Assembly: GCA_031082225.1 (NCBI GenBank)
Contig: JAVHLG010000010.1
Span: forward strand, 1 to 64,000
Direction: 5' to 3'
DNA length: 64,000 nucleotides
Source of the DNA: Desulfovibrionaceae bacterium
GTDB lineage: Bacteria > Desulfobacterota > Desulfovibrionia > Desulfovibrionales > Desulfovibrionaceae
Part shown: one piece after another, positions 9,289 through 25,781 of the stretch
How positions within the stretch are numbered: the first letter of the stretch is position 1
Layout of the letters: every line of letters begins with the position of its first letter
Notes under the pieces: generated by a model
Told to the model about the DNA's origin: nothing
Database searches by the model: none
The model's input: only the letters and a program-made list of their open reading frames with translations
Made by a program: the position numbers and the translations under genes

Positions 9289-10428
9289 TCAGTTCCCGGG
9301 CCGGAAGGCGACGAGCAGATCCTCGCCCAGGCGTTCCGTGGCCGCCAGGCGCAGGCAAAGGGCCTGATCCATGGTCTCGGCCCGGCGGCCGGAAAAAAGC
9401 GGCACGGCCAATTCGTCGCCCAGGATCTTAGGGGCGTAGAAAAGCAAAAATTCGTCGACCAGGCCCGCCGCCAGCAGGGACAGCCCGAGCCTCCCGCCGC
9501 CCTCGCACAGAACCGTGTAGCACCCGGCCTCGGCGCGAAGGGCCGTCAACGCCGCCTGAAGCGACAGCCTGCCGGGTTCGCCCACGGCCATGACCCGCAC
9601 GCCCGTCTCGCGCAGGCCTGCGGCGGTTTCGGAGGCAGCGGCCTCGGCGTCCGTGAGAAATATCGTCTGCCCGGGACGCTGGCGCACAAGCGTCACGTCC
9701 GCCCCGGGCTCGGGAAGCCGACTGGTCAGCACCACGGCCAGGGGATTTTTGGCCCAGTCCGGGGCCGGGGAGAGGCGCGGGTCCAGGCCCGGGTTGTCGG
9801 CCCGGAAGGTTTCGCCGCCCACCAGCACCGCGTCGCAGCGGGCGCGCAGCTCATGCACCCTGCGTCTGGCGGCCTGGCCGGTGATCCACTGGGAATGCCC
9901 GGTGCGGCAGGCGATGCGGCCGTCCAGGGTGGCGGCCAGCTTGAGCTGCACGTAGGGTCGGTCGGTTGTCTTCCAGACGAAAAAATCCGCGATCATGTCC
10001 CGGCATTCGCGCTCCAGCACCCCCACGGCCACGGACACGCCGCGCTCGCGCAAAAACGCCGCGCCATTCCCGGCCACATCAGGGTTGGGGTCCGGGCAGC
10101 CCACGTAGAGGCGCTTGATTCCGGCGGCCAGGAGGGCCTGGGTGCAGGGGGGGGTCTTGCCGTGGTGGTTGCAGGGCTCAAGCGTCACGTACATGGCGCA
10201 GGACGCCGGGTCGACGCTGCGCCTCCGGGCGTCCTCCAGACAGGCCACCTCGGCGTGGGGGCCGCCGCAGCATTCGTGCCGCCCGGCGGCCATCACCTGG
10301 TCATCCTTCACCAGGACCGCGCCCACGGCCGGGTTGGGGGCCGTCAGGCCGCGTGATTTCGCGGCCTGGGCCAGGGCCTCGCGCATGAAGCGCGCGTCGC
10401 GGTCAGAAAGAACCGGTGAGCAGTTCAA
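9289..10428 (-). CDS. ribD: Bifunctional riboflavin biosynthesis deaminase/reductase RibD
   Basis: RibD carries out the second and third steps of riboflavin synthesis from GTP: deamination of the diaminopyrimidine, then NADPH reduction of the ribosyl chain. At 379 residues the length is typical. The N-terminal zinc deaminase has [13 protein letters not shown] and [15 protein letters not shown] (His, two Cys). The reductase domain begins near [15 protein letters not shown] and includes [14 protein letters not shown]. The longest frame starts with TTG at 10428, six bases after GGGGA and overlapping the upstream deaminase gene by 26 nt. The ATG at 10386 is an alternative that removes 14 residues. 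Last gene of the operon; no FMN riboswitch is evident because no separate leader exists. Confidence 0.95.
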
Positions 10429-19550: not shown

Positions 19551-19877
19551 ATGTTCACCACAAAGCAACTGGCCGCCATCGCCGCCATCGCCGTCTGTCT
19601 GGTGGCCCTTTTGGCCGGAAAACCCGAAGGAGACGCCTCGATCTCCCCGCCCCGGCCGGACGCGGCAACACGTCCCGACATGACGCCGGGGACGGGAAGC
19701 CCCGCAGGGGCCGCACACGCCGAGGCGGTGTTCGCGGCCCGCTACGCCGCCGCTTTCGAGAAGGGAATCTATCCGGGGCTGCCCGTGACCATGTGCGAGG
19801 CCAAGCTTTTGGAGTGCCGGGGCCTGGGATATGCGGCCTGCCGGGAGGCCTGCCGCCAGGCCTGCGGCCTAAAATGA
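19551..19877 (+). CDS. Small exported/anchored Cys-rich protein, unknown function
   Basis: I do not recognise this 108-residue protein. An N-terminal hydrophobic helix (LAAIAAIAVCLVALLAG) acts as signal anchor or signal peptide, followed by a Pro/Asp/Thr-rich linker. The C-terminal 45 residues have five Cys in CEAKLLECRGLGYAACREAC and CRQACG, suggesting disulfides or metal binding in the periplasm. GGAG lies seven bases before the ATG. It is divergent from the LysR gene and lies upstream of the chrB cluster in the same direction, separated by a 116-bp gap with an operator. Confidence 0.7.
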   Translation: MFTTKQLAAIAAIAVCLVALLAGKPEGDASISPPRPDAATRPDMTPGTGSPAGAAHAEAVFAARYAAAFEKGIYPGLPVTMCEAKLLECRGLGYAACREACRQACGLK

Positions 19878-19966
19878 CGCAGCTCGGGACATGATCCGTC
19901 CCCGGGGAAGCATCGCCCGCCTTGTGCGTCAACGCCCCGGTATTTTCTCGAACTCCCCTTGACTTT

Positions 19967-20002
19967 GTTATTTATATAGCTAAAAAACGCTATATGAATA
20001 AC
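19967..20002. promoter_or_regulatory. Inverted-repeat operator overlapping the chrB start codon
   Basis: GTTATTTATATAGC (19967-19980) and GCTATATGAATAAC (19989-20002) are inverted repeats of 14 bp with one mismatch, separated by the 8-nt TAAAAAAC. The right arm contains the chrB ATG (19994). A -35-like TTGACT (19959-19964) lies 16 nt before TAAAAA (19981-19986). That would place initiation at or just before the ATG, so the message could be leaderless; no Shine-Dalgarno is visible. The AT-rich arms stand out in GC-rich DNA. A likely binder is ChrB itself. Confidence 0.75.
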
Positions 20003-20926
20003 AAAAACTGGCTTGTATTTTCCTTTTCCGTCCCGGCCAAGCATCAGGGCTTCCGGGTGAAGATCTGGCGCAAGCTCAATGCCCTCGGGGCCGTACAGGT
20101 CAAAAACGCCCTGTATCTTTTGCCTGCGGGCGAGCACCACCAGGAGCAACTCACCTGGCTGGCCAAGGAGACCGAAGACCAGGGCGGCGAGGCCGTCATC
20201 CTGGCCGGGGGCGAACTGTTGCACACCCCGGACGCCCAGATTCGGACCATGTTCACCCGCGCCCGCGACGAAGACTACCAGCGGCTGGAAGAAGAGGTCC
20301 GGTCCACCCTCGCCAACCCCGAATCCGGGGACATCCAGGCCTGCCTGCGCAAATTCGGCCGCAGACTGGAGGCAATCCGGGCCATCGACTTTTTCCCCAG
20401 TGGCCGGGGGCAGGCTCTTTTGCGCATGCTGGAAGAAGTCGGCCGCCATCCGCAAGAGACGCCCCCGGTCATCCCCCGCCGCGATCCCGCCACCGTTCAG
20501 GGAAAAACCTGGGTGACCAGAACCAATCCCTATGTGGACCGCCTGTCTTCCTTCTGGCTCGTGCGCCGCTATCTGGACCCCGGGGCGCGGATCGCCTTCC
20601 TGCCGCCAGGGGAAGCCATCCCAAGGCAGGCGGACACCGTGGTTTTCGACATGGCCGAGGCCGATTTCACCCACACCGGGGGACTCATCACCTTCGAGGT
20701 CATCGCCGAGGCCTTCGGCCTGACGGACGCCATCCCGCTGCCCATGCGCCGGGTGCTGCGGGCCATCGACCTGGAGGAGTTCGAAACCGCGCCCGAGGAG
20801 GCCCGGGGCGTCAAGCGGATGCTCGACGGCCTGGTGGCCGCCTGCCCGGACGACCGGCAGCGCATGGAACTCGCCCTGGCCTTTTTCGACACGCTGCTGG
20901 CCTCCTACACCGCAACCCACAAGTGA
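19994..20926 (+). CDS. chrB: ChrB-like chromate-responsive regulator
   Basis: A 310-residue ChrB-type protein. The N-terminal half (MNNKNWLVFSFSVPAKHQGF onward, with VKNALYLLPAGE) matches the ChrB N-terminal domain. The C-terminal half starts at TWVTRTNPYVDRLSSFWLVR and contains FDMAEADFTHTGGLITFEVI, the ChrB C-terminal domain. In studied bacteria ChrB is a chromate-sensing regulator of chrA. The start at MNNKNW fits the family; the frame is open 24 codons upstream, across the operator. It leads an apparent operon with the DUF2148, MFS and chrA genes. Confidence 0.88.
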   Translation: MNNKNWLVFSFSVPAKHQGFRVKIWRKLNALGAVQVKNALYLLPAGEHHQEQLTWLAKETEDQGGEAVILAGGELLHTPDAQIRTMFTRARDEDYQRLEEEVRSTLANPESGDIQACLRKFGRRLEAIRAIDFFPSGRGQALLRMLEEVGRHPQETPPVIPRRDPATVQGKTWVTRTNPYVDRLSSFWLVRRYLDPGARIAFLPPGEAIPRQADTVVFDMAEADFTHTGGLITFEVIAEAFGLTDAIPLPMRRVLRAIDLEEFETAPEEARGVKRMLDGLVAACPDDRQRMELALAFFDTLLASYTATHK

Positions 20927-20934
20927 GACCGGAC

Positions 20935-21486
20935 ATGAAAGACATCGCCATCCACGTGGCCCAGCTCATGGCCGCATCGGCCCGTACCGCCCCCAAGGCC
21001 GGGGGCAAGGACTTCCTGGAAATCGCCGTGATATCCCGGGACGAGGATTTGAAGGACATTGCCCGGGCCATGCGGGACCACGCCCCCCACAGCACCAACG
21101 AGGCCTTCTGGCTCAGGGACGCGGCCAACATCGAAAACTGCCAGGCCCTGGTCCTGGTGGGGCTTGGGAGGTCGCTGGCCGCAGGCTACGACTGCGGCGC
21201 CTGCGGCTATCCAACCTGCGCCGAGTTCCTGAAAAACCGCCAGATGCAGGAAAAAGACATGGGCTATTCCGGGCCGCACTGCGTCATGCGCATGATGGAC
21301 ATCGGAGCGGCCCTGGTCTCCGCCGCCAAGACCGCAAGCCTGCTCAACTTGGACAACCGGGTGCAGCAACGTGTGGGGGCGGCGGCCCGGGCCCTGGGCT
21401 GCATCAAGGCCGAAGTGGCCATGGGCATCCCCGTGGGTTATTACGGCAAGTCCATCTTCTTCGACCGGGCCGCGCCCAAACACTAA
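20935..21486 (+). CDS. DUF2148 ferredoxin-like protein
   Basis: A 183-residue protein of the DUF2148 family, expected to bind an iron-sulfur cluster through AAGYDCGACGYPTCAEF. Other features are a conserved start (IHVAQLMAASARTAPKAGG) and a C-terminal AMGIPVGYYGKSIFFDR. Relatives are found in anaerobes, often with redox genes, but their reaction is unknown. I use ATG 20935; a GTG at 20923 overlapping the chrB stop is an alternative. Its location inside a chromate cluster suggests a redox function toward the oxyanion, which is inference. Confidence 0.85.
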   Translation: MKDIAIHVAQLMAASARTAPKAGGKDFLEIAVISRDEDLKDIARAMRDHAPHSTNEAFWLRDAANIENCQALVLVGLGRSLAAGYDCGACGYPTCAEFLKNRQMQEKDMGYSGPHCVMRMMDIGAALVSAAKTASLLNLDNRVQQRVGAAARALGCIKAEVAMGIPVGYYGKSIFFDRAAPKH

Positions 21487-21537
21487 GCCGACTGCCCCGG
21501 GACGGGCAATGGTCCGTCCCGGGCCCTCGAGGTCGCC

Positions 21538-22737
21538 ATGACCGTCTTTTCCAATCTGTGCGCGGTGGGGTTCCTGGCCCGGTTTTCCTACGCCCTGGCC
21601 CGCAACCCGGTCCTGCCGCTGTTCGCCCTGTTCCTGGGGGCCGGTCCCGAGGCCATCGGGCTGGCCGTGGGCATCTCCACGGTCACGGGCATCTTCTTCA
21701 AGCTCCCGGCCGGGGCCCTCTCCGACGTGATCGGCCGCCGCCGCACCATGCTGGCGGGGCTTTGCGTCTTCGGCCTGATGCCGTTTTTCTACCTGCTTAT
21801 AGATTCCTATTCCGCCCTGATCCTTGTGCGCTTCCTGCACGGCTTGGCCACGGCCATCTACGGCCCCGTGGCCATGGCCGTGGTGGCGGACGTGGCCGGA
21901 GAGCGCAAGGGCGAGATGCTGTCCTGGTTCTCCTCCGTGGGCATCATCGGCACGCTCCTGGGCGCTCCGCTGGGGGGCCTTCTCCTCGACGCCGGGACAA
22001 CCGGCGGCCCGGTGGCCTGGCAGTTCCGCATGGTTTTCGCGGTCAGCGCGGTATCGGGCATGGCGGCCCTGATCCTCGGCCTGAGGTCGCTTGGGATCTC
22101 GGAGAAAATCGAGACGGGGGTGGGATTTCGGACTCGGCTGACCCGCTTTCGGGAGGGCATCCGCGAGGTGCTTTCGGATCGGCGGATCGTGACCACCTCG
22201 TCCATGGAGGGCGTCCAGAACATGGCCATGGGCGCCCTGGAGGCCTTTTTGCCGATCTATGCGGTCACCGTGGCCGGACTGACCGAATTCCAGGCGGGTC
22301 TCCTCTGGGGCGCGCAGATCGTGGTCACCATGCTGGCCAAGCCGCTCATGGGCCGGATGTCCGACGCCCGGGGCCGTCGCTCCCTCATCGTGGCGGGTCT
22401 GATCCTGTGCGGGCTGTCCTTTGCCGCTGTCCCCTTTCTGCACGGCTTTTTCCCGCTCATGGCGGCCTGTCTGGTCTTCGGACTGGGAGAGGCCCTGGTG
22501 ACCTCGTCGTCCGCCGCCCTGGTGGCGGACATGTGCCAGGCCCGTCATTTCGGATCGGCCATGGGGGCCTTTGGAACCATCTTCGACATCGGCCACGCCT
22601 GCGGCCCCATTCTAGGCGGACTTCTGGTGGGCTGGCTGGGATTCCAGACCAGCTTTCCGCTTATGGCGCTTCTCCTTTTTGCGGCGATCCCGGTGTTTCT
22701 CGCCTCCGTCCCGGAAAAAAAGGCTGTGCCCCTGTAA
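21538..22737 (+). CDS. Major facilitator superfamily transporter
   Basis: A 399-residue inner-membrane transporter with about twelve helices. The MFS motif A is seen as GALSDVIGRRRTMLAG between helices 2 and 3, and again as KPLMGRMSDARGRRSLIV in the second half. It resembles the drug-efflux type. The gene lies between the DUF2148 and chrA genes with short gaps (51 and 28 bp), so it is probably co-transcribed. The substrate is unknown; an MFS gene is not part of the classic chr locus. Confidence 0.9.
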   Translation: MTVFSNLCAVGFLARFSYALARNPVLPLFALFLGAGPEAIGLAVGISTVTGIFFKLPAGALSDVIGRRRTMLAGLCVFGLMPFFYLLIDSYSALILVRFLHGLATAIYGPVAMAVVADVAGERKGEMLSWFSSVGIIGTLLGAPLGGLLLDAGTTGGPVAWQFRMVFAVSAVSGMAALILGLRSLGISEKIETGVGFRTRLTRFREGIREVLSDRRIVTTSSMEGVQNMAMGALEAFLPIYAVTVAGLTEFQAGLLWGAQIVVTMLAKPLMGRMSDARGRRSLIVAGLILCGLSFAAVPFLHGFFPLMAACLVFGLGEALVTSSSAALVADMCQARHFGSAMGAFGTIFDIGHACGPILGGLLVGWLGFQTSFPLMALLLFAAIPVFLASVPEKKAVPL

Positions 22738-22765
22738 CCCCAGCGCCTCACAAGAAAGGATGAGC

Positions 22766-24049
22766 ATGGAAACCGGACGCATCCCCTTCTCCCGGGCCTT
22801 CGCCTACTGGTTCAAGCTCGGCTTCATCAACTTCGGCGGCCCGGCCGGACAGATCGCCATGATGCACAAGGACATGGTGGACGACCGAAAATGGATCGAC
22901 GAGAAGATGTTTTTGCGGGCGCTCAACTTCTGCATGCTTTTGCCCGGGCCGGAGGCGCATCAACTCGCCGTGTACATCGGTTGGCGGCTCAACGGATATC
23001 TTGGCGGGCTCGCGGCGGGTTTCTGCTTTCTCGGGCCGTCCATGGCGCTCATGCTGTTTCTGTCCTGGCTTGCCGCCTCGCAGGGACAGTTTGCCGCCGT
23101 GTCCGGCATCTTCCACGGCATCTCGGCCGCCGTGGTGGCCATCGTCATCGAGGCCCTGTTCCGGCTGTCCCGCAAATCCTTGAAGCACGGCGCGCTCTAT
23201 GTGTTTGCCGGGGCGGCCTTCGTGCTGGGGCAGTTTTTCAAAGTCCCGTTCCCGGCCATCGTGCTGCTCGCCGGAGCAGCGGGCACGTTGCTTTACCGGG
23301 TACGTCCGGAGGTGTTCTGCCACCGGGCCGCCGGGTCCAGGGAATGCGTCATGGACGCGCCCGCTGCGCCGGGCAGGCTTCCATCCGCCACCCATGTCCT
23401 GACGGTCGTCCTGTGGTTCGCCGCCATCTGGGCGGCAGTGGCCCTGCCCGTGTTTTTGTGGGGCGGCGTACAGCACACCTTCTCCCAGATCCTGGTCTTT
23501 TTCACCAAGGCGGCCTTTGTCACCTTCGGGGGGGCCTATGCGGTCTTGGCCTACATAGCGGACAATGCGCTGCAGTTCGGCTGGCTGGCGGAAAAAGACA
23601 TGCTTCTGGGCCTGGGGCTGGCCGAAACCACCCCCGGGCCACTGATCATGGTCACCCAGTTCGTCGGTTTTTTCGCCGCCTGGAACAACCCCGGTTCATG
23701 GTCCCCCCTGGCCGCCGGAGTCGCGGGGGGCCTTTTGACTACCTTCGCCACCTTTTTGCCCAGCTTCATGTTCATCTTCGCCGGGGCGCCGTTCATCGAG
23801 GCCATCACCTCCAACGTCCGGTTCGCGGCCGCCCTGACGGGCATATCCGCCGCCGTGGTGGGCGTCGTGCTCAAGCTGGGGGTCTTTTTCGCCTGGCACA
23901 CCTTCCTGCCGGACGGCCGCGTGGACGTTTTCGCGGTCCTGGTGGCGGCGGCCGCGCTTTTCGCGCTATTGCGGCTCAAGATGTCCATGCATCTTCTGGT
24001 GGCCCTCAGCGGCCTGGCCGGACTTGTGTGGCGGCTGGCCATGCCATAA
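22766..24049 (+). CDS. chrA: Chromate efflux transporter ChrA (two-domain)
   Basis: A 427-residue member of the CHR family. Two chromate-transporter domains are visible. The first has FKLGFINFGGPAGQIAMMHK and LPGPEAHQLAVYIGWRL; the second has FVTFGGAYAVLAYIADNALQ and ETTPGPLIMVTQFVGF. About ten to twelve helices place it in the inner membrane, where the family exports chromate. ATG 22766 follows AGGA by five bases; the ATG at 22760 overlaps that site. It closes the chrB cluster and meets prfC tail to tail with a 27-bp gap. Confidence 0.92.
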   Translation: METGRIPFSRAFAYWFKLGFINFGGPAGQIAMMHKDMVDDRKWIDEKMFLRALNFCMLLPGPEAHQLAVYIGWRLNGYLGGLAAGFCFLGPSMALMLFLSWLAASQGQFAAVSGIFHGISAAVVAIVIEALFRLSRKSLKHGALYVFAGAAFVLGQFFKVPFPAIVLLAGAAGTLLYRVRPEVFCHRAAGSRECVMDAPAAPGRLPSATHVLTVVLWFAAIWAAVALPVFLWGGVQHTFSQILVFFTKAAFVTFGGAYAVLAYIADNALQFGWLAEKDMLLGLGLAETTPGPLIMVTQFVGFFAAWNNPGSWSPLAAGVAGGLLTTFATFLPSFMFIFAGAPFIEAITSNVRFAAALTGISAAVVGVVLKLGVFFAWHTFLPDGRVDVFAVLVAAAALFALLRLKMSMHLLVALSGLAGLVWRLAMP

Positions 24050-24076
24050 GGCAGGCCCTGGCGAGCCTCTCAGGAT

Positions 24077-25687
24077 TTACGACACGCACTCCCGGGCGGT
24101 CAAAAAGGTCACCTGGGGCCATTCCTCCATGGCCTTCTCCAGCCGCCACTCGTTGGCGAAGGACATGGCCGGAAGGCCGTCGGAGTCGGTGAGCATGGCG
24201 CTTGCGTTCTCACGGCGCATGCGGTCCAGGACCGCCGTCTCGCCGGAAAGCCAGCGCACGGCGGCGATGTTCACCGGCTCCACCGCGATGTGCACGTCGT
24301 ATTCCCCCCGCAGCCGTTCGGTGATGACATCGAACTGCAACACCCCCACCGCGCCGAGGATGTGCTCGCGTCCGGTGATGGGCCGAAAAAGCTGGATGGC
24401 CCCTTCCTCGGTGAGTTGTTGCAGGCCCTTTTCCATCTGCTTGGCCTTGAAGGGGTTTTTGAGGATCACCCGGCGGAAGTGCTCGGGCGCGAAATGGGGA
24501 ATGCCCAGGTAGCGCAGGGGCTCGCGGCCGCACAGGGTGTCGCCGATGCGCAGGGTGCCGTGGTTGGGGATGCCGATGATGTCGCCCGGCCAGGCCTCCT
24601 CGGCGTGGGCCCGGTCCTGGGCCATGAAGATGGTGGCGTTGTGCACCAGCATGTCCTTGCCCGTGCGCTGGTGGGCCACCCGCGTCCCCCGGGTGAAGCA
24701 GCCGGAATTGACGCGCAAAAAGGCCATGCGGTCCCGGTGGGCCGGGTCCATGTTGGCCTGGATCTTAAAAACCACCCCGGAGAAGGGCTCCTCCAGGGGC
24801 GAGACCTCCCGGGTTTCGGTCTGCCTCGGCCGTGGGGCCGGGGCGTGGCGCAAAAAGGCGTCCAGAAGCTCGCGCACCCCGAAGTTGTTCACGGCGCTGC
24901 CGAAAAAGACCGGGGTCTGCTTGCCCGCCAGGTACCGCCCATGATCGAAGGGATAGCCCGCGCCTTCAAGCAGTTCGATGTCGTGGCGCAGGCCGTCCGC
25001 GGCCTGGGCCCCCACCTGGCGGTCCAGTTCCGGATCGTCAAGACCCTGCACCAGCACCGATTCCCGGGGCCTTGTCCCCTTGTCCTCACCGGCCTGGAAA
25101 AAGCGCAGCATCTTTTGCGGGATGTCGTAGACGCCCTGGAAGCCCTTGCCCATGCCGATGGGCCAGGTCATGGCCGCGCATTCGATGCCGAGACTGCCCT
25201 CGATGTCGTCGAAAAGCTCGAACGGCGACATGCCGTCCCGGTCCAGCTTGTTGATGAACGTCATGATCGGGGTGTCGCGCATGCGGCAGACGTCCATGAG
25301 CTTTTTGGTCTGGGTCTCCACGCCCTTGACGCTGTCGATGACCATCAGCGCCGAGTCCACGGCCGTGAGCACCCGGTAGGTGTCCTCGGAAAAGTCCTGG
25401 TGGCCCGGGGTGTCCAAAAGATTGACGGCGTATCCGTCGTAGTCGAACTGCATGACCGAGGAGGTCACGGAGATGCCGCGCTCCTTCTCGATGGCCATCC
25501 AGTCCGAGGTGGCGTGGCGGGAGGCCTTCTTGGCCTTGACCGCCCCGGCCATGCGGATGGCCCCGCCGAAAAGGAGCAGCTTCTCGGTCAGGGTGGTCTT
25601 GCCCGCGTCGGGGTGGCTGATGATGGCGAAGGTGCGGCGGCGCATAACCTCGCGTCGCAGGCGGGTCATGAAGGCGATGTCGGACAT
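24077..25687 (-). CDS. prfC: Peptide chain release factor 3
   Basis: A GTPase that recycles RF1/RF2 after translation termination. From [20 protein letters not shown] it has 536 residues, as expected. The G motifs are [13 protein letters not shown], the switch region with [21 protein letters not shown] and FINKLDRDG. The domain with [20 protein letters not shown] distinguishes RF3 from EF-G. The start at 25687 matches the family; the frame is open to 25774. It lies downstream of the phosphorylase gene, with a hairpin between. Confidence 0.96.
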
Positions 25688-25781
25688 GATGGTCTCGTCG
25701 TGCCGGATGGCCGGACTTGGTTGTCGTTGGCGGGTCGAAGCGGGTGGGTATCCGCCTTTCACCCGTCCCGTCAACGCATGA

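Follow-up and report, generated by a model that had tools for sequence, protein, structure and literature searches.

Why do genes for a DUF2148 protein and an MFS transporter lie between the regulator gene chrB and the chromate efflux gene chrA in a member of the Desulfovibrionaceae? The locus in question is on contig JAVHLG010000010.1 of assembly GCA_031082225.1, in a stretch of 64,000 nucleotides that is referred to here as the window. An initial annotation of the window, made from the sequence alone, had described a chr-type cluster with two extra members, arranged as a tight run of four genes and including a DUF2148 protein with four cysteines. Pfam and NCBIfam searches bear this out: the run occupies positions 19994–24049 of a single strand, in the order chrB, DUF2148 gene, MFS gene, chrA, with intergenic gaps of 8, 51 and 22 bp. 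These four genes are a conserved, movable unit. On balance, the unit is probably a ChrB-controlled detoxification cassette directed against chromate or a closely similar oxyanion, in which the DUF2148 protein would contribute redox chemistry and the MFS protein export. The existence of the unit can be held with more confidence than this reading as a whole, and the identity of the substrate with less.

The regulator gene, chrB (19994–20926, plus strand, as are the other three), encodes 310 amino acids, with matches to Pfam ChrB_C (3.7e-31) and ChrB_N (4e-12). It is followed by the gene for the DUF2148 protein (20935–21486; 183 amino acids; Pfam DUF2148, 7.2e-27; FeS, 1.2e-5), for which an alternative GTG start at 20923 is possible and would overlap the stop codon of chrB. 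Both the C-terminal DUF2148 domain (PF09918; 93.6 bits, the cut-off being 25) and the FeS cysteines are present in this protein, and the four cysteines (C87, C90, C95 and C116, i.e., CX2CX4CX20C) are invariant in 47 aligned relatives. Then come the gene for the MFS transporter (21538–22737; 399 amino acids; Pfam MFS_1, 1.9e-55), which belongs to a family recurring beside DUF2148, and chrA (22760–24049), which encodes a 429-residue member of the chromate efflux transporter (CHR) family (Pfam Chromate_transp, 2.5e-70; NCBIfam TIGR00937, with 232 bits where 171.7 is the cut-off). The next gene after chrA (24077–25774) is on the opposite strand. The host genome, 4.08 Mb in 150 contigs, has one DUF2148 gene, one ChrB gene and one ChrA gene, both ChrA-domain matches being in that one gene.

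Among 119 relatives, a ChrB_C match was found in 18, a DUF2148 match in 13, and both in 9 (Fisher p 2.6e-6 for co-occurrence). DUF2148 adjoins ChrB in all nine that have both, on the same strand in three (the window, G011 and G051; genomes and loci are referred to by G and L numbers) and divergent from chrB in the other six. Wider flanks were inspected in 16 of the 18 ChrB genomes (all but G079 and G118, in which the match is partial or weak), and in 13 of these 16 (the window counted) an MFS protein at least 67% identical to that of the window is encoded next to ChrB, including four genomes without DUF2148. The same association is seen in the phylum of a Nitrospira metagenome-assembled genome (MAG; L060, the same as G119): across 295 genomes, DUF2148 is present in 37, ChrB_C in 59 and both in 24 (Fisher p 1.1e-10). 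In 21 of the 24 genomes with both, the two matches are on one contig and no more than 6 kb apart; in the remaining three (G195, G280 and G333) they are on different contigs, with a match at a contig end in two of them. There are also 13 genomes in this phylum with DUF2148 and without ChrB_C. Ten of these were fetched: seven have a more distant DUF2148 (39–43% identity) and no cassette gene, and three have a cassette-type protein beside an MFS gene, one of these three loci also having ChrA and HD genes.

A scan of named genomes, for which nine chr-linked DUF2148 proteins were aligned to serve as the query, gave 161 pattern matches and 101 relatives, of which the best 80 loci were used, a sample which leans to the chr-linked subfamily. 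In these, ChrB–DUF2148–MFS is found in Desulfovibrionaceae, Nitrospirota and Magnetococcales. After L133–L135 had been left out (43–48% identical, no cassette gene), 77 loci remained: a main group of 57, 8 from Magnetococcales and 12 from gammaproteobacteria. Within 6.5 kb of DUF2148 in the main group there is an MFS gene in 52/57 loci, ChrB in 49/57, ChrA in 19/57 and an HD-domain gene in 14/57; where both flanks reach 6.5 kb, the corresponding counts are 20, 16, 7 and 7 of 21. In Magnetococcales, ChrB_C is matched in 7/8 loci, MFS in 6/8 and ChrA in none of the eight. Random neighbours in relatives, which would have counted against the initial annotation, are thus not what is seen, and DUF2148 and MFS are conserved partners of a chr-type cluster. 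The suggestion that this was a response "in an anaerobe" proved too narrow: MAGs of Nitrospira and Magnetococcales, which are not known to be strict anaerobes, carry DUF2148 with ChrB_C and MFS. ChrB_C in Magnetococcales is in most cases encoded by a short gene of its own; in L093, L096, L099, L100, L103, L108 and L110 such a ChrB_C-only gene adjoins DUF2148 and, for the most part, MFS comes next, as though the sensor and DNA-binding parts had been split. A contig of a MAG labelled Spirochaetia (L056) has the full four-gene set, with a DUF2148 protein 86% identical to that of the window; either the set was transferred recently or a desulfovibrio contig was binned wrongly.

Two members of the same genus as the window, G002 and G001, are collinear with it on both sides of the cassette and have neither ChrB_C nor DUF2148. 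Comparison by blastn of window positions 10000–32000 with the corresponding regions revealed that G002 (about 91% DNA identity) has 112 bp, and G001 164 bp, in place of window 19871–24080, a block which contains the cassette and little else. The empty site in both genus mates means that the cassette came or went as a unit. The DNA at 19551–19877, just before the cassette, encodes a protein of 108 amino acids which matches no Pfam family and has a hydrophobic stretch at its N-terminal end and four cysteines at its C-terminal end; this DNA is retained in both genus mates, and the gene is therefore outside the movable block. In a tree of 103 DUF2148 rows, 86 form one clade on a long stem with 100/100 support; the tree tool warned of a bootstrap that had yet to converge and of long branches meeting in places. 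Every chr-linked DUF2148 included in the tree (L128, L132 and L176 were left out, their matches being too short) is in this clade.

Could the arrangement nevertheless be a chance neighbourhood, i.e., a chr operon broken by two unrelated genes? MFS and DUF2148 are general families which occur elsewhere too. However, the linkage across phyla, the single DUF2148 clade and the gain or loss of the block as a whole rule this out; the linkage counts and the two genus mates lacking the block exclude chance, which is left with next to no probability.

What, then, might the DUF2148 protein do? The best of the AlphaFold2 models has a mean pLDDT of 91.5; on this basis, the protein is predicted to have the FMN-nitroreductase fold with a four-cysteine insert. 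A Foldseek search of the Protein Data Bank (PDB) with this model gave a best E of 4.2e-5 and TM scores, by query, of 0.47–0.60 for the 50 rows listed, which from their titles we take to be nitroreductases, iodotyrosine deiodinases, BluB-like proteins, FbiB and related members of the nitroreductase superfamily. Alignment of the model with 3gfa_B by VIA-align had a Z of 12.1 and an rmsd of 4.2 over 151 residues. A check independent of the model was provided by profile–profile comparison (hhalign) with 28 nitroreductases of related genomes: the 47-row DUF2148 alignment matched with a probability of 65 (P 6e-5, 46 columns) and the 103-row alignment with a probability of 86 (P 4.9e-6, 128 columns; residues 2–168), whereas eight other families, used as controls, gave probabilities of at most 1.3 and P of at least 0.04. 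Residues ARTAPKAGGKD of DUF2148 line up with the nitroreductase segment AR.APS..N.QP, and the nitroreductase profile has a gap at the place of the four cysteines; these cysteines would probably hold a [4Fe-4S] cluster. Nitroreductase folds act on many substrates. Enzymes of the NfsA and NfsB families reduce Cr(VI) in vitro (PMC3596305), which makes a reduction step by the DUF2148 protein chemically reasonable, and by analogy this protein may itself reduce the oxyanion. The predicted fold and the insert lend plausibility to the earlier proposal that redox chemistry may accompany efflux.

The regulator has the residues expected of a chromate sensor. In ChrB from Ochrobactrum tritici, R180, R187 and H229 are needed for induction by chromate, and DNA binding seems to be the task of R18 and R23 (PMC3817168). 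The O. tritici residues R18, R23, R180, R187 and H229 correspond to R21, R26, R176, R183 and H227 in the window, a mapping made via ChrB1 of Cupriavidus metallidurans and the spacing of the residues. In an alignment of 63 ChrB rows (some genomes being included twice), R176, R183 and H227 are present in 63/63, R21 in 98% and R26 in 95%. The start codon of chrB is covered by an AT-rich inverted repeat (19964–20005; 17-nt arms, 94% complementary, with an 8-nt spacer), the score of which was not reached by any of 30 shuffles, and which is a candidate ChrB operator. In O. tritici, a repeat is located at −37 to −4 (PMC3817168). A scan for sigma-70-type promoters gave no match at the repeat of the window. 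Part of the Nitrospirota loci have a palindrome of their own, TGTAACA-N(0-3)-TGTTACA with at most one mismatch: there are 22 in 98 fetched loci, compared with 0.67 in simple shuffles, counts which are a description rather than a blind test because the motif was derived from the same loci. Sixteen of the 22 are no more than 260 bp upstream of a ChrB match, five are about 280–385 bp before ChrB, and one (L058, 3464–3479) is 8 bp upstream of a multihaem cytochrome c gene. In this Nitrospirota chr locus the cytochrome gene comes after ChrB, and the palindrome hints that the cytochrome belongs to the same response.

The cassette probably works as follows. ChrB would bind the AT-rich palindrome at its own start and change state when the oxyanion is present, whereupon the chrB–DUF2148–MFS–chrA run would be expressed, presumably as a single transcript. 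ChrA, where present, would export the oxyanion. The DUF2148 protein would most likely reduce, in the cytoplasm, either the oxyanion or a reactive or damaging product of it, with low-potential electrons which could come from ferredoxin or a reduced flavin, and the MFS protein would most likely export the oxyanion, its reduced product or a conjugate.

A number of observations weigh against this picture. The AlphaFold2 input alignment was shallow (47 rows) and the five models span pLDDT values of 67–91.5. An hmmsearch of PDB sequences with the DUF2148 profile gave no nitroreductase at E 10, PDB sequence searches with the protein found no relative, and the DUF2148 sequence of the window, searched singly against Pfam, does not match PF00881; thus, any homology between DUF2148 and the nitroreductases is remote. 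Most nitroreductases bind FMN via an N-terminal arginine segment. The DUF2148 protein, which begins with the fold's second element, seemingly has no such segment, and FMN binding is therefore uncertain. The window palindrome and the Nitrospirota motif are unlike in sequence, and many loci have no repeat that scores better than those of shuffled sequences. Several desulfovibrios, and a plasmid of Nitratidesulfovibrio vulgaris, have ChrB and MFS without DUF2148. None of the 12 gammaproteobacterial DUF2148 loci of the chr-linked clade has ChrB, MFS or ChrA of these families within 6.5 kb; as these proteins are nested inside the clade of 86 rows, their link to chr genes has seemingly been lost. 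Finally, a ChrA-family domain was looked for in 26 selected genomes and not detected in 15 of them, including G017 (two contigs, 99% complete). This is not a frequency: the 26 comprise all nine relatives with DUF2148 and ChrB, G023 (ChrB and MFS without DUF2148) and others partly chosen because ChrB and DUF2148 lie close together in them. Many of the 26 are MAGs for which no completeness is stated, and G120 and G011 are the same genome.

The last of these points implies that the recurring core is ChrB–DUF2148–MFS and that ChrA is optional; being near DUF2148 in the minority of main loci counted above, ChrA is not central to the set. It also implies that the substrate may not be chromate. Perhaps the cassette serves another compound that is sensed by ChrB (a different oxyanion, a nitroaromatic or a quinone) and the chrA of the window is an optional addition. 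In keeping with this, MFS is a more constant partner of DUF2148 than ChrA is (52/57 as against 19/57), nitroreductase folds have a broad range of substrates, and the relatives of the window MFS protein among PDB sequences (40 sequences) are mostly transporters of amines and drugs. However, the chromate-sensing residues of ChrB are invariant, ChrA is present in the window, and at least 95% of the 62 aligned MFS rows (59–82% identical to the window protein) retain R15, R22, R98, H101 and H353, which would fit an anion, and also other cargoes. Taken together, this alternative is rather unlikely.

Among the known loci closest to the cassette is that of C. metallidurans plasmid pMOL28, which has chrI, chrB1, chrA1, chrC, chrE and chrF1, then chrO, chrN and chrP (PMC2864759). 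Like the window it has ChrB, ChrA and an MFS permease gene, chrP, here in a gene order observed on a C. metallidurans plasmid; chrP is called chromate-induced, with no data given in the available part of that report (PMC2864759). The presence of an MFS gene among chr genes is therefore no novelty, chrP being a known case, although BLAST at E 1e-3 does not match the chrP product to the MFS protein of the window. The ChrA proteins are 28% identical over 333 residues, and the C. metallidurans locus differs in having a superoxide dismutase gene and, in its annotated 12.9-kb stretch, no DUF2148.

This comparison suggests another role for the DUF2148 protein, namely, that it repairs or protects against the redox stress caused by Cr(VI) rather than reducing the oxyanion, the detoxification being left to ChrA and MFS, as the superoxide dismutase ChrC lies beside chrB–chrA in C. 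metallidurans. On a C. metallidurans plasmid, chrB–chrA is surrounded by genes for superoxide dismutase, an MFS protein, a short ChrB_C protein and the rhodanese ChrE (PMC2864759), and relatives of the window cassette also have rhodanese genes (L037, L107 and L166) and short ChrB_C genes (L062 and L093); the gammaproteobacterial loci, in which DUF2148 occurs in the absence of chr genes, fit such a role as well. Yet the notion that DUF2148 has taken the place of superoxide dismutase is an impression, as no search for the latter was made in the cassette loci. Repair is rather unlikely, and reduction by DUF2148 with export by MFS is kept as the preferred reading. In the gammaproteobacterial loci (L113–L116, L118–L121, L125–L127 and L129), several share genes for DUF1499, DnaJ-related, metallophosphoesterase and thioredoxin-like proteins, neighbours which were tried as a guide to function and gave no lead. 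Two other sets of neighbours outside the chr clade were rejected for the same use: those on three plasmids (Peptoclostridium, Parabacteroides and Bacteroides), and those of the seven Nitrospirota loci with a DUF2148 of 39–43% identity; in both sets the neighbours are unlike. A search of plasmids with the DUF2148 protein gave just three matches, all of them distant.

Other known systems share parts of the arrangement. Transposon TnOtChr of O. tritici (chrB, chrA, chrC and chrF) has the functional ChrB residues which have counterparts in the window (PMC3817168); it differs in being on a transposon and in that no DUF2148 or MFS gene is named in the published abstract. On plasmid pDEVAL01 of N. 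vulgaris RCH1, chrA, chrB, a rhodanese gene and a gene of 93 codons share a strand, and the opposite strand has an MFS gene with a product 68% identical to that of the window; unlike the window, the plasmid has no DUF2148 in the annotated stretch. A chrBA operon on a Desulfovibrio vulgaris plasmid has been named, with no mention of DUF2148 or MFS in the portion of the report consulted (PMC10146906), and no publication was found by locus tag for the D. vulgaris plasmid loci. Among the other chr accessory genes that have been described are chrJ, chrK and chrL, none of which, in the available text, is DUF2148 or MFS (PMC2751784). To the nitroreductase superfamily (NfsA, NfsB, BluB, iodotyrosine deiodinase and the C-terminal domain of FbiB) the likeness is in the predicted fold and the profile–profile match, and the difference lies in the start of DUF2148 at the second fold element and in the four-cysteine insert. 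DUF2148 is not mentioned by name in the full text of 5.39 million open papers, and literature searches, in the parts of papers available to them, found no description of a ChrB–DUF2148–MFS(–ChrA) set.

A bolder form of the preferred reading, which is offered tentatively and seems doubtful as it stands, is that ChrB–DUF2148–MFS is a second, ChrA-independent defence against chromate or another oxyanion, in which an iron-sulfur enzyme of the nitroreductase fold (using a flavin, F420 or the cluster alone) would draw on low-potential electrons to convert the oxyanion, the product being removed by a dedicated MFS transporter. Desulfobacterota, Nitrospirota and Magnetococcia would have exchanged the set as one block, with DUF2148 put to another use in the gammaproteobacterial group. 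If the cassette works as proposed, it would give a function and a fold to the DUF2148 family, and ChrB could govern a chromate-type response in bacteria in which no ChrA domain is found, so that annotation by chrA alone would miss such responses. Bioremediation makes use of Cr(VI) reduction by desulfovibrios, and understanding of the enzymes responsible is described as incomplete (PMC5847207); the cassette provides named gene candidates for this reduction.

Several smaller features of these loci may be added. In 14 of the 57 main loci, among them L070 (7183–7758), L107 (6087–6920) and L123 (9847–10386), an HD-domain gene comes after MFS; the HD protein of L107 is a fusion with a rhodanese domain. 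Chr loci of Desulfovibrionales repeatedly encode, next to ChrB or MFS, a protein of about 92 amino acids that matches no Pfam family (L035, 10385–10654; L037, 7417–7695; L047, 7794–8072; also L043, L036 and L038). In Nitrospirota chr loci (L060, L064, L073, L080, L082 and others) there is a recurring protein of about 1060 amino acids, combining PPDK_N and PEP-utilizers domains with a lectin-like tail, the gene for which often adjoins ChrA or MFS. DVU0246 is likewise a PPDK-like protein, and for this reason the Desulfovibrio nitrate-resistance cluster DVU0245–DVU0251 was considered; it was dropped, no link having been found in the available text (PMC4001038). Within the window itself, the gap between the DUF2148 and MFS genes contains a GC-rich inverted repeat (21496–21523, plus strand; perfect 10-nt arms 8 nt apart), which perhaps has a role in mRNA processing or attenuation.

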